This document shows, piece by piece, positions 7,464 to 10,255 of a stretch of DNA of 64,000 nt. The stretch spans positions 1,302,001-1,366,000 of the forward strand of contig NZ_JAVDVK010000001.1 of NCBI RefSeq assembly GCF_031456835.1, written 5' to 3'. Positions within the stretch are counted from its first letter, which is position 1; each line of letters starts with the position of its first letter. The notes under the pieces were generated by a model. It was not told the origin of the DNA, did not search any database, and saw nothing but the letters and a program-made list of their open reading frames with translations. The position numbers and the translations under genes were made by a program. The DNA comes from Leifsonia shinshuensis (GTDB lineage Bacteria; Actinomycetota; Actinomycetes; Actinomycetales; Microbacteriaceae).

Positions 7464-7686
7464 GGCTGTGCCTCTCGTGAAGGTGGTGGTGGGGTGGGCC
7501 GGCACTGTCGGCGGCCACAACGAGCCTCCCCCGAGCGGCCCAGCGGGTCAAAACGTCTTGCGAAATGTGACGCCTCGCGTTCACCCGGCCGCTCTTACGA
7601 CGGGACGGGGCCGCGCGTAGTGTGAAGCTCGTCGGCGTGCGGGACGCACGGCGACGCATCGAGCGTGACGGAACGACGGGAGAAGC
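7464..7686. other. Divergent intergenic region between metQ and the repeat-peptide gene
   Basis: 223 bases. I looked for an S-box, SAM-II-like element or cobalamin aptamer for metQ and saw none. A minus-strand TTGACC near 7545-7550 could be a -35 for metQ, but no good -10 follows at 17 bases. Upstream of the peptide gene lies the sequence GAGCGTGACGGAACGACGGG; the purine-rich GGGAGAAGC next to ATG 7687 serves as its ribosome-binding site. Nothing else is evident. Confidence 0.3.
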
Positions 7687-7953
7687 ATGAGCGACATCAA
7701 CGACGACGACATCAGCACCGACGCGGTCGGCGGCGGCGAGGGCCCCGCGGACGGCGGAGCGAACCCGGGCGGCCACGACGGCGGAGCCGACGGCTCGGCC
7801 GGCGGCACCGGCGAGGGCCCCGCGGACGGCGGCGCCAACCCCGGAGGCCACGACGGCGGAGCGGACGGCTCGGCCGGTTCGGGCGGCGAGGGGCCGGCCG
7901 ATGGCGGCGCCAATGCGGGCGGGCACGACGGCGGAGCCGACGGGTCCGCTTGA
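7687..7953 (+). CDS. Gly/Asp-rich three-repeat small protein, candidate modified-peptide precursor
   Basis: 88 residues. A short acidic leader (MSDINDDDISTDAVGG) is followed by three copies of a 22-residue unit with a period of exactly 25 residues. Each begins GEGPADGGAN and ends HDGGADGSA, with 3-residue linkers GGT and GSG; copy three has Ala for Pro and ends at the C-terminus. There is no Cys, no aromatic residue after the leader and no hydrophobic core, so it should be unfolded unless modified. Its stop overlaps the start of the JmjC/cupin gene (TGATGA), coupling translation. I do not recognise a family. The architecture resembles a multi-core ribosomal peptide precursor or a small secreted repeat protein; the former is inference. 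Confidence 0.75.
   Translation: MSDINDDDISTDAVGGGEGPADGGANPGGHDGGADGSAGGTGEGPADGGANPGGHDGGADGSAGSGGEGPADGGANAGGHDGGADGSA
7735..7950 (+). repeat. Three 75-nt in-frame tandem repeats
   Basis: The coding repeats of the small protein are also clear at DNA level, e.g. GGAGGCCACGACGGCGGAGC and variants recur every 75 bases. Synonymous differences between copies (gaacccgggcggccacgac versus caaccccggaggccacgac) show that the copies are not recent identical duplications: the protein sequence has been kept while the codons drifted. Confidence 0.8.
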
Positions 7954-9359
7954 TGACGACGGATGGGCGCGGGCCGGGCGACCGGCCCGCGCTTTCGCGT
8001 TGCGTGCCGGTCGATCGCGAGCGTTTCGCCGCGGAGTACTGGGGACGGCGCCCGGTGTTCACGCGCGCGGCGGACCTGCCCCGCGACTTCTCGGACCTGT
8101 TCAGCACGGATGCGGTGGATGAGCTGGTCTCGTCCCGCGCGCTGCGGACGCCGTTCGTGCGCATGGCGAAGGAGGGCGACGTGCTGCCGCCGTCCCGGTT
8201 CACCGGCCCCGGCGGCTTCGGCGCCGAGGTGGGCGACCAGCTCGACTCGGCGAAGGTGCTGGCCGAGTTCGCGGACGGCGCCACCCTCGTGCTCCAAGGG
8301 CTGCACCGCACCTGGCCCGCGATCGCGGAGTTCTCCCGGCGCCTGGCGGCGGAGCTCGGGCATCCCGCGCAGGTGAACGCGTACATCACGCCGGCGTCCT
8401 CGCGCGGCTTCGACCCGCACTACGACGTGCACGACGTGTTCGTGCTGCAGATCGCGGGCGAGAAGCACTGGCGCATCCACGAGCCGGTGCACCCGGACCC
8501 GCTGCGCGACCAGCCGTGGAGCGACCACCGGCAGGAGGTCGCGGCGCGCGCCCAGGAGACGCCCGCGATCGACGAGACCTTCCGGCCCGGCGACGCGCTG
8601 TACCTGCCGCGGGGCTGGATCCACTCGGCGGAGGCGCTCGGCGGCGTCTCCGTGCACCTGACGATCGGCGTCGCGGCGTACACGCGGCACGACGTCGTGC
8701 GGGAGGCGGTGGCCCGGGCCGCGGACACGAGCGCGCTGCGGGCGTCCCTGCCTCTGGGGTTCGATCCGTCGGACGCGGAGGCGGTGGCCGCGGTGGTCGG
8801 CGAGACGGTCGACGCCCTGGTGGAGGCGCTGGCGGATCCGGCAGCCCGTGCGGACGTCGCGGCCGCGGTCGCCGACCGCCTGCGGCGCCGCCGGCGCGCG
8901 GACTCGCCTCCGGCGCCCGTCCGTCCGCTCGCGACCATCGCGACCGCGGAGACGATCGGGCCGTCGACGCTGGTGCGCGCACGTCCGGGGCTCGACGCGG
9001 ACGTGACCGTGGAGGTCGAGACGGTGACGGTGCGGCTCCCGACGAAGAAGATCGCGCTGCCGATCGCCGCGCGGGAGGCCGTGGAGCGGCTGCTCGACGG
9101 CCGGCCGGTGGCGGTCGGAGAGTTGCCGCTGGACGAGCGGTCGGCCGTCGTGGTGGCGCGGCGGCTGCTGCGGGAGGGGGTCGTCGTGGGGGCTCTGAGC
9201 GCTGGCGGTGTCGGCGCTGCCGACGCCGGTGCGGGCGGTGCCGACGCCGGTGACCTCGGTGCCGAGTTCGCGGACGTGGACCCGGCCGACGAGGCGGGCG
9301 TCTCGTCGGACGGCGAGCGCAGCGCGACCGCCGACTTCGGAACCGCGACCGCCACGTGA
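7953..9359 (+). CDS. JmjC/cupin_4 family Fe(II)/2-oxoglutarate-type oxygenase
   Basis: 468 residues. The domain at about 20-245 is a cupin_4/ribosomal-oxygenase-like JmjC fold with the iron triad visible: H156-x-D158 in DPHYDVHDVFVLQ and distal H224 in LPRGWIHSAEA. K171 in GEKHWRIH is well placed to hold 2-oxoglutarate. Known relatives hydroxylate Arg or His on ribosomal proteins; JmjC enzymes also hydroxylate Asp or Asn in peptides. A helical winged-helix-like region follows, then a low-complexity Ala/Gly/Asp tail (about 415-468). Both neighbours overlap it (ATG in TGATGA; next gene in GTGA), so the three products are probably made in fixed ratio. The upstream repeat peptide, rich in Asp, Asn and His, is the natural candidate substrate; this is inference. 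Confidence 0.85.
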   Translation: MTTDGRGPGDRPALSRCVPVDRERFAAEYWGRRPVFTRAADLPRDFSDLFSTDAVDELVSSRALRTPFVRMAKEGDVLPPSRFTGPGGFGAEVGDQLDSAKVLAEFADGATLVLQGLHRTWPAIAEFSRRLAAELGHPAQVNAYITPASSRGFDPHYDVHDVFVLQIAGEKHWRIHEPVHPDPLRDQPWSDHRQEVAARAQETPAIDETFRPGDALYLPRGWIHSAEALGGVSVHLTIGVAAYTRHDVVREAVARAADTSALRASLPLGFDPSDAEAVAAVVGETVDALVEALADPAARADVAAAVADRLRRRRRADSPPAPVRPLATIATAETIGPSTLVRARPGLDADVTVEVETVTVRLPTKKIALPIAAREAVERLLDGRPVAVGELPLDERSAVVVARRLLREGVVVGALSAGGVGAADAGAGGADAGDLGAEFADVDPADEAGVSSDGERSATADFGTATAT

Positions 9360-10255
9360 CGGACACCGTCCCGGGCTGGCTGCCGTGCAGCGACCGGGCC
9401 ATCGGGCGGGGTGACCCGCTGCCGGGCACGGCCGGTCTCGGCGAGCGCTGGCTGCTCGTCGAGATCGAGAGCGGCTGGGGACGCCACGCGTTCTTCGACT
9501 CCGACCTGGACCCGGCCCTCGGCGCCGCGATCGTCTCGCGCGCCGAGGAGGCCGGGATGCGCCCCCTCGCGATCCGGCGTACCCGGCTGCGCGCTCCGCA
9601 ACGCCGGGACCAGTCGTCGTGGCGCTGGGCGCTGGTCGACTGCCGTCCGGGTCGCGAGTCCATCCGCTGGGGTCGCGTTGACGACCCCGCCGAGCTGCTG
9701 ACGCTCCCGCTCGACGGCAGCGCCGGCGAGCCGAGCGACGCGCCGATCTACGCCGTCTGCACCCACGCCCGCCACGACCAGTGCTGCGCCGTGCGCGGCC
9801 GCCCAGTGGTGGAGGCGCTGGCCGCCACCCATCCGGAGCTGACGTGGGAGTGCTCGCACCTCGGTGGCGACCGGTTCGCCGCGACGATGATCGCCTTCCC
9901 GCACGGCCTCCTCTACGGCCGGGTGCTCGCGGAGGACGTCGAGACGGTGGTGGAGCGGCACGCGGAGGGACGGGTGGTCCCGGGCCTGCTGCGCGGACGC
10001 ACCGCCCTGACGACGGTCGCCCAGGCGGCGGAGGCGTTCGCCCGCACCGCGACCGGCGACGATCGGATCGACGCCTTCCGCGTGCTCGACGAGCATCCGC
10101 ATCCGCACGGCTGGCGCGTCGACCTCCGCCACGGCGACGAGACGCTCACCGTGGAGGTGGGCGAACGCCTGTCGGAGCCGCTGCTGAGCACCTGCGCCGC
10201 GACGATCGCCCACCCGGTGCGCGAGTTCGTGCCCGTGTCGGTGGACCCGGCCTGA
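9356..10255 (+). CDS. Sucrase/ferredoxin-like (thioredoxin-like [2Fe-2S]) protein
   Basis: 299 residues of the Suc_Fer-like family, whose fold is a thioredoxin-like ferredoxin. Candidate ligands are C11, C135, C143-C144 in VCTHARHDQCC, and C166-x-H168 in WECSHLGGDRF, which matches the family's CSHxGGxxFA signature. It begins with GTG overlapping the oxygenase stop by 4 bases. A ferredoxin-like partner next to an Fe(II) oxygenase suggests that it supplies electrons or keeps the iron reduced, but JmjC enzymes do not normally need one, so the pairing is notable. The name sucrase is historical. Confidence 0.82.
   Translation: MTDTVPGWLPCSDRAIGRGDPLPGTAGLGERWLLVEIESGWGRHAFFDSDLDPALGAAIVSRAEEAGMRPLAIRRTRLRAPQRRDQSSWRWALVDCRPGRESIRWGRVDDPAELLTLPLDGSAGEPSDAPIYAVCTHARHDQCCAVRGRPVVEALAATHPELTWECSHLGGDRFAATMIAFPHGLLYGRVLAEDVETVVERHAEGRVVPGLLRGRTALTTVAQAAEAFARTATGDDRIDAFRVLDEHPHPHGWRVDLRHGDETLTVEVGERLSEPLLSTCAATIAHPVREFVPVSVDPA

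Follow-up and report, generated by a model that had tools for sequence, protein, structure and literature searches.

JmjC/cupin enzymes that hydroxylate ornithine in the precursors of ribosomally synthesized and posttranslationally modified peptides (RiPPs) are described under the names BipG, BpmG, and PbsQ (PMC12257519, PMC12707348). Since such hydroxylases of RiPP precursors exist, the general kind of system considered here is already known. We analyzed a 64,000-nucleotide stretch of the Leifsonia shinshuensis genome (assembly GCF_031456835.1, contig NZ_JAVDVK010000001.1, positions 1,302,001 to 1,366,000 of the forward strand), hereafter the window, which contains a cassette of three genes that encode, in order, a repetitive peptide, a JmjC_2 oxygenase, and a Suc_Fer protein. 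We propose that this cassette is RiPP-like, with the peptide as the substrate of the oxygenase, Asp as the hydroxylated residue, a probably metal-binding product, and the Suc_Fer protein as an accessory electron carrier, and we give this reading a probability of roughly 0.6. No description of the NO66-type pairing, the Asp repeats, the Suc_Fer partner, or the spread across the phylum was found in the open-access PMC literature. The features of the cassette, in window coordinates, are as follows.

7678..7685, + strand: probable ribosome-binding site GGGAGAAG of the peptide gene, recognized by eye from the sequence alone
7687..7953 including the stop, + strand: peptide gene encoding a precursor-like repeat peptide of 88 aa (ATG at 7687, TGA at 7951-7953)
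7687..7734, + strand: acidic, leader-like N-terminal part with a D-D-D-I-x-T motif found in most relatives
7735..7800, + strand: repeat 1, 22 aa
7810..7875, + strand: repeat 2, 22 aa
7885..7950, + strand: repeat 3, 22 aa
7953..9359, + strand: NO66-like JmjC_2 oxygenase, 468 aa (ATG start at 7953)
8418-8420, 8424-8426, and 8622-8624, + strand: predicted Fe ligands H156, D158, and H224 of the oxygenase
9356..10255, + strand: Suc_Fer protein, 299 aa (GTG start at 9356)

The peptide stop and the oxygenase start overlap by 1 base (TTGATGA), and the oxygenase stop and the GTG start of the Suc_Fer gene overlap by 4 nt, in agreement with the coupled gene order recognized in the initial annotation of this DNA.

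The repeat peptide and its pairing with the oxygenase

The encoded peptide starts with the acidic sequence MSDINDDDIST and continues with three copies of the 22-residue unit GEGPADGGAN(P/A)GGHDGGADGSA, with a calculated isoelectric point of ∼4.05 and a mass of 7.4 kDa. The units are spaced 25 residues apart (Tandem Repeats Finder: period of 75 bp, 2.9 copies, score of 297), so that the initial description of an 88-residue peptide with an acidic start and three 22-residue repeats stands, while its period of 22 residues is replaced by one of 25. No Pfam or NCBIfam model matched the window peptide at E values up to 10, and NCBIfam gave no match to nine peptides of the family. Pairwise comparison of the three repeats gave 5, 12, and 13 base differences, 5, 11, and 12 of them at third-codon positions (28 of 30 in total, the pairs being nonindependent), and 14 Microbacteriaceae peptide genes show mismatches of 12.3, 10.9, and 38.8% at codon positions 1, 2, and 3, respectively. 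This third-codon bias, present within the repeats as well as across genes, shows selection on the peptide as a protein, and we read the gene as encoding a precursor whose amino acid sequence is constrained.

The occurrence of the peptide follows that of the enzyme closely. A peptide profile run on 394 Actinomycetes genomes had 60 matches, spread over 54 genomes, and every one of the 60 is at most 700 bp from a family oxygenase, which fits the enzyme-peptide link drawn in the initial annotation; the contrary pattern that it had named, a majority of oxygenase and ferredoxin-like pairs lacking the peptide, was not seen. An oxygenase match at 1e-30 or better was found in 115 of these genomes and a full-length match at 1e-100 or better in 63, among which all 54 peptide-bearing genomes fall; the peptides of the remaining nine are more divergent and were recognized by eye. 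Since the genome searches scored 4, 6, or up to 13 first-look candidates per genome, these counts are lower bounds.

A rule-based search of loci L002 to L174 likewise found a peptide ahead of the enzyme gene for 122 of 128 distinct members of the oxygenase family, 121 of them by the right open reading frame (ORF); at L003, the rule matched a wrong ORF 245 nt upstream, although the real peptide is present. The rule called for Asp plus small or polar residues and was applied to de-duplicated oxygenases at or above a cutoff of 229 bits, chosen after the scores were known. Three of the six misses (L041, L042, and L046) trace to oxygenase starts placed too early, and their peptides do exist; two (L172 and L174) lie at contig edges with 19 and 79 nt of upstream DNA; and the last (L135) reached the cutoff only through the sum of two domain hits and is no true member. 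As a control, 17 of 18 lower-scoring JmjC_2 loci lacked a rule-passing peptide, and the 18th (L173) has both a peptide and a Suc_Fer gene and is thus a distant family member. Among 23 named loci, the peptide is whole in 21 and a fragment at the contig start in L033 and L040. Two of the 22 Microbacteriaceae genomes with an oxygenase match, L022 and L023 (28 to 30% identity), have neither peptide nor Suc_Fer gene. The link between enzyme and peptide is therefore strongly supported.

A chance low-complexity ORF is ruled out by the third-codon pattern together with an antisense control of the peptide rule, which called 0 of 128. Asp density alone (≥20% in 40 aa) was rejected as a counting rule, having called 122 of 158 members but also 4 of 15 nonmembers among loci that were not de-duplicated (cutoff of 200 bits). 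Separately, we observed that the family oxygenase at L167 stands next to a long repeat of a different kind (resembling SADGTDQGVxGGTYGPRDA) with no Suc_Fer gene within the stretch covered, and that the oxygenase match of genome G466 (L109) is split over two overlapping frames by a frameshift or sequencing error, with peptide and Suc_Fer genes adjoining.

The composition of the peptides bears on which residue is modified. Of 123 peptide tails, 122 contain Asp, Gly, and Ala (the one left over is the wrong ORF picked for L003); next come Ser (116), Thr (82), Pro (81), Glu (77), His (74), and Asn (46); 47 tails have neither His nor Asn, and Cys, Phe, Tyr, and Trp are each found in one to three. 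An alignment of 12 peptides gave the same picture, with an invariant core formed by the Asp, Gly, and Ala residues of ADxGA and DGGAD motifs and with variable Asn, Pro, and His. Asp is constant in the tails and His and Asn are not, which makes Asp the best candidate target and our best inference from the sequences for the hydroxylated residue; the earlier suggestion of Asn or His as a common target does not hold. The trimmed cores are 36% Gly, 20% Asp, and 19% Ala with almost no hydrophobic residues (Asp makes up only ∼16% of the Microbacteriaceae repeat unit), and the residue after Asp is Gly 1,151 times, the next commonest being Ala at 173. Most peptides are 60 to 130 aa long, and the Geodermatophilus versions are long.

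The oxygenase and the Suc_Fer protein

The window oxygenase matches PF08007 (E value of 4.5e-28), and its best relative by sequence profile is NO66 (1.8e-32). A Foldseek search with the structural model (predicted local distance difference test score of 73.7) also returned NO66 as the best match (E value of 6e-23, template modeling score of ∼0.6), and the best relatives in the PDB are, in order, human NO66, MINA53, a Rhodothermus YcfD-like protein, YxbC, and YcfD. The H-x-D...H triad noted in the initial annotation is intact. Its residues H156, D158, and H224 are invariant across all 23 aligned relatives, and so is K171, whose counterpart in an alignment with NO66 is a Lys with a role in 2-oxoglutarate binding. 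By modeled fold, domain layout, and Fe triad, the enzyme is of the JmjC_2, NO66-like type. Residues 416 to 468 form an Asp/Gly/Ala-rich tail that is modeled with low confidence. This end of the enzyme, at 9206-9359 of the window, resembles the peptide in composition and holds a 21-bp tandem repeat at 9206-9265. It is conceivable that this tail acts as a self-substrate or tether.

The third protein matches PF06999 (E value of 6.7e-20), and in a structure comparison residues ∼128 to 215 of its model resemble thioredoxin-like [2Fe-2S] ferredoxins, which agrees, for that part of the protein, with its first assignment as ferredoxin-like. In that comparison, the VIA-align rows cover mainly residues 128 to 299 and barely the N-terminal part. 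Residues C135, H140, C143, C144, C166, and H168 are conserved. A Suc_Fer gene is present at 111 of 128 family-oxygenase loci, and the 57 best Suc_Fer matches all adjoin the oxygenase. Apd1 ligates its [2Fe-2S] cluster with two His residues of an H-x3-H motif. All 110 oxygenase-adjoining copies carry Asp or Cys in place of the second His of this motif (GGD in 98, GGC in 12), and GGH is found in 6 of 10 other copies fetched. At L126 and L133, a second, generic Suc_Fer gene (GGH) adjoins the cassette on the same strand, starting ∼2.2 to 2.4 kb before the oxygenase end.

Distribution and neighborhood

The named relatives are Leifsonia, followed by Subtercola, Agromyces, a Microbacteriaceae metagenome-assembled genome, Geodermatophilus, and Blastococcus. 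The host genome (3.79 Mb) has a single oxygenase match and a single Suc_Fer match, and 22 of 199 Microbacteriaceae genomes have an oxygenase match. Beyond the class, a sample of 296 genomes from other classes of the phylum contained 13 with a match at 1e-55 or better. We inspected 15 loci by eye (14 from these 13 genomes and L171 from a genome of the class) and recognized an Asp-rich peptide in 12; the other three are L167, with a distinct type of repeat, L172, truncated by a contig edge, and L174, which is ambiguous. Family f11 looks mycobacterial, given a mycolic acid synthase gene near the cassette of G313, one of the 63 Actinomycetes genomes with a full-length oxygenase match, and cutinase- and MmpL-like genes seen by eye on the f11 stretch L153. 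The 145 plasmid records with weak matches included none over 80% of the query, and PADLOC gave no match.

We built a tree from 80 of 146 distinct oxygenases, taking every third row with a DGGA-type peptide and each remaining row that reached 300 aa. Rows of the DGGA type, together with the nonrepetitive L102 and L105, form one supported group of 34, and most rows with a DxDGTD-type peptide form a second of 25; L106, L108, and L110 fall outside both, L110 near two nonmembers. The type labels come from a simple pattern that mislabeled the DxD-like peptides of L106 and L117 as DGGA. The peptide cores are of several kinds, and these types largely track the oxygenase tree.

Clustering of the neighborhoods of 84 loci showed that only the oxygenase (82 loci) and the Suc_Fer protein (59 loci) are widely shared across families; the low-complexity peptide itself clustered in only 8 of the 84. 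The other clusters among the 40 largest consist of shadow ORFs, lineage-specific genes, or a general ATP-binding cassette (ABC) ATPase type. The window cassette is flanked by genes for a met-type ABC transporter, a glyoxalase, and an AraC-type protein (Pfam), which, the general ABC ATPase type excepted, cluster with Leifsonia-type loci only and so lie outside the system.

Candidate reactions and comparison with known systems

In our view, the peptide would be made as a substrate specifically for the coupled oxygenase, which, sharing the fold of NO66, MINA53, and YcfD, would depend on Fe(II) and 2-oxoglutarate. Hydroxylation would most likely proceed from one Asp to the next along the repeats, converting each to β-hydroxy-Asp (+16 Da each). 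The product would be a strongly acidic Asp-Gly chain that carries many hydroxyl groups and probably binds metal, and the [2Fe-2S] Suc_Fer protein would be a helpful electron carrier that is not always required.

Several observations weigh against this reading. Ser is nearly as constant in the tails as Asp. The targets of NO66, MINA53, and YcfD are His or Arg and that of BipG is ornithine, so that Asp would, to our knowledge, be a new one for the fold. The leader is not uniform: a DDDxT-like motif was found in only 84 of 123 untrimmed ORFs by a strict pattern that misses some true ones (the count on the trimmed set, 64 of 122, is too low, since trimming cut some peptides at an inner Met, as in DDDMTT), and other acidic starts occur in f26 genomes and elsewhere. 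Two family oxygenases of f4, genus g89 (L102 and L105), stand next to a nonrepetitive peptide with no adjoining Suc_Fer gene. No conserved protease or exporter appeared among the 40 largest clusters of the 84 loci (flanks of up to ∼6 kb), which is unusual for a secreted RiPP. As for the third gene, Suc_Fer was not found by 17 of the 128 family oxygenases, although one of these (L135) is a nonmember and in some cases the locus stops shortly past the oxygenase. Of 13 genomes examined, 4 gave no Suc_Fer match; in two of these 4, only 150 of 176 and 150 of 194 candidates were scored. The Suc_Fer protein is dispensable for the cassette, and the need for a ferredoxin implied by the initial annotation is weakened accordingly. 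As a separate observation, the acidic peptides of L102 and L105 end in DDPELxGADLxEDQxxGxGPTxEPGA, and both genomes carry a distant generic Suc_Fer gene.

A more ambitious version of the proposal would make this a new RiPP class across Actinomycetota, in which the NO66-type oxygenase converts the Asp-Gly repeat peptide to a poly-β-hydroxyaspartate chain that holds or buffers metal, and the Suc_Fer protein, through a ligand set distinct from that of its relatives, reduces this metal; we hold it only tentatively. Among the alternatives, the one that survives best keeps the peptide as substrate and changes the chemistry to desaturation, oxidation of Gly, Ala, or Ser, or an isoaspartate or succinimide change at Asp-Gly. 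The 2-oxoglutarate enzymes are chemically versatile, and the constancy of Gly and Ala, equal to that of Asp, the near constancy of Ser, and the prevalence of Asp-Gly would all suit it. However, the nearest enzymes of known structure are side-chain hydroxylases, and the widely conserved gene set contains no methyltransferase, the enzyme used elsewhere for succinimide formation; we consider such chemistry rather unlikely.

An iron carrier or ribosomal siderophore, in which β-hydroxy-Asp binds Fe(III) and the [2Fe-2S] protein frees Fe(II) as FhuF does, draws on a parallel set of loci. In each of the six f24 JmjC_2 loci (L116, L120, L122, L125, L127, and L131), the enzyme follows a short conserved peptide ending in GTDSSSDFI or GTDGSSDFI, like GGDSDGTDSSSDFI, and an S9-type peptidase gene is found upstream. 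Five of the six also have an FhuF-like gene no more than 4 kb away, at distances of 0.14 to 3.9 kb from the enzyme (Pfam FhuF_C was examined at L127). A siderophore-interacting protein (SIP) gene is present in L127 by Pfam, and a look-alike was seen by eye in L131. We regard f24 as a second candidate peptide/JmjC system. We searched 124 upstream stretches, 6 of them from f24, for a DtxR/IdeR box. Upstream of the window-type peptides, the best box had 7 mismatches of 19, no better than in shuffled DNA. The best f24 boxes (3 to 4 mismatches), present in 5 of 6 loci, immediately precede the FhuF-like gene (L120, L122, L125, and L131) or, at L127, the SIP gene; no box of that quality occurred in the 700 bp ahead of the f24 enzyme. 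Since these boxes precede the FhuF-like and SIP genes and not the peptide, we give the siderophore link low weight, and the placement of the FhuF-like gene together with the box positions suggests that it may be a mere neighbor. The window cassette, moreover, has neither exporter nor receptor, and an iron carrier is improbable.

Short peptides also precede lower-scoring JmjC_2 genes at L135 (ending in TDTND), L136 (SDGND), and L137 (with DSDGSDG). Upstream of another JmjC_2 gene, at L113:3468-3836 (+ strand), lies a peptide with a Cys-rich, lanthipeptide-like end (..CDPDPSDDCWIVCNPNYCY) that had no NCBIfam match.

It is quite improbable that the oxygenase targets a ribosomal protein, as NO66 and YcfD do, with the peptide as a mere partner (inhibitor, chaperone, or translational coupler). 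Fold and domain layout do fit ribosomal oxygenases, and the start/stop overlap would couple translation, but a gene serving only as a coupler could vary freely in protein sequence, whereas the peptide frame is constrained and its core types largely follow the enzyme tree; the patchy presence in Microbacteriaceae would also be odd for a ribosome factor. Least probable of all is a disordered, hydrophilin-like protectant or structural protein merely tuned by hydroxylation, which would suit the Gly/Asp/Ala-rich, scarcely hydrophobic cores and the long versions in the desiccation-tolerant Geodermatophilus but requires neither the short length of most peptides nor a dedicated enzyme.

The cassette brings to light a widespread peptide gene family for which there is no Pfam or NCBIfam model, and with it the probable natural substrate of a large bacterial group of JmjC oxygenases, whose fold is known mainly from ribosome hydroxylation; it bears on what bacterial NO66-like enzymes modify. 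NO66, MINA53, and YcfD share with the window oxygenase the fold, the full-length layout, the Fe triad, and the aligned Lys; their targets are His or Arg residues of ribosomal proteins (PDB titles), whereas here a peptide gene overlaps the enzyme gene. The Suc_Fer family, with yeast Apd1 and Aim32, has the PF06999 domain and the thioredoxin-like [2Fe-2S] fold in common with the third protein; the cassette copies are distinguished by GGD or GGC where 6 of the 10 other fetched copies have GGH. In the biphenomycin-type RiPPs, a JmjC/cupin enzyme is likewise encoded with a ribosomal precursor, but that enzyme is one of several in a larger cluster and acts on one ornithine (PMC12257519, PMC12707348). 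The cassette oxygenase is of the NO66 type, is the only conserved enzyme besides the Suc_Fer protein, and accompanies Asp-rich repeats.

The Asp β-hydroxylases CinX and DurX of the lanthipeptides would give the same product residue in a ribosomal peptide; they belong, as far as is known, to an enzyme family other than that of the window oxygenase, and the conserved cassette set lacks lanthionine genes. Methanobactin and the MNIO-made bufferins are small enzyme-modified peptides with a metal role whose ligands are Cys derived or thioamides, whereas the cassette cores are practically free of Cys. Should the product bind metal, the cassette would represent a new ribosomal route to hydroxyaspartate chelators, and a metal-holding hydroxyaspartate chain would be a ribosomal counterpart of the hydroxyaspartate siderophores or the copper bufferins.

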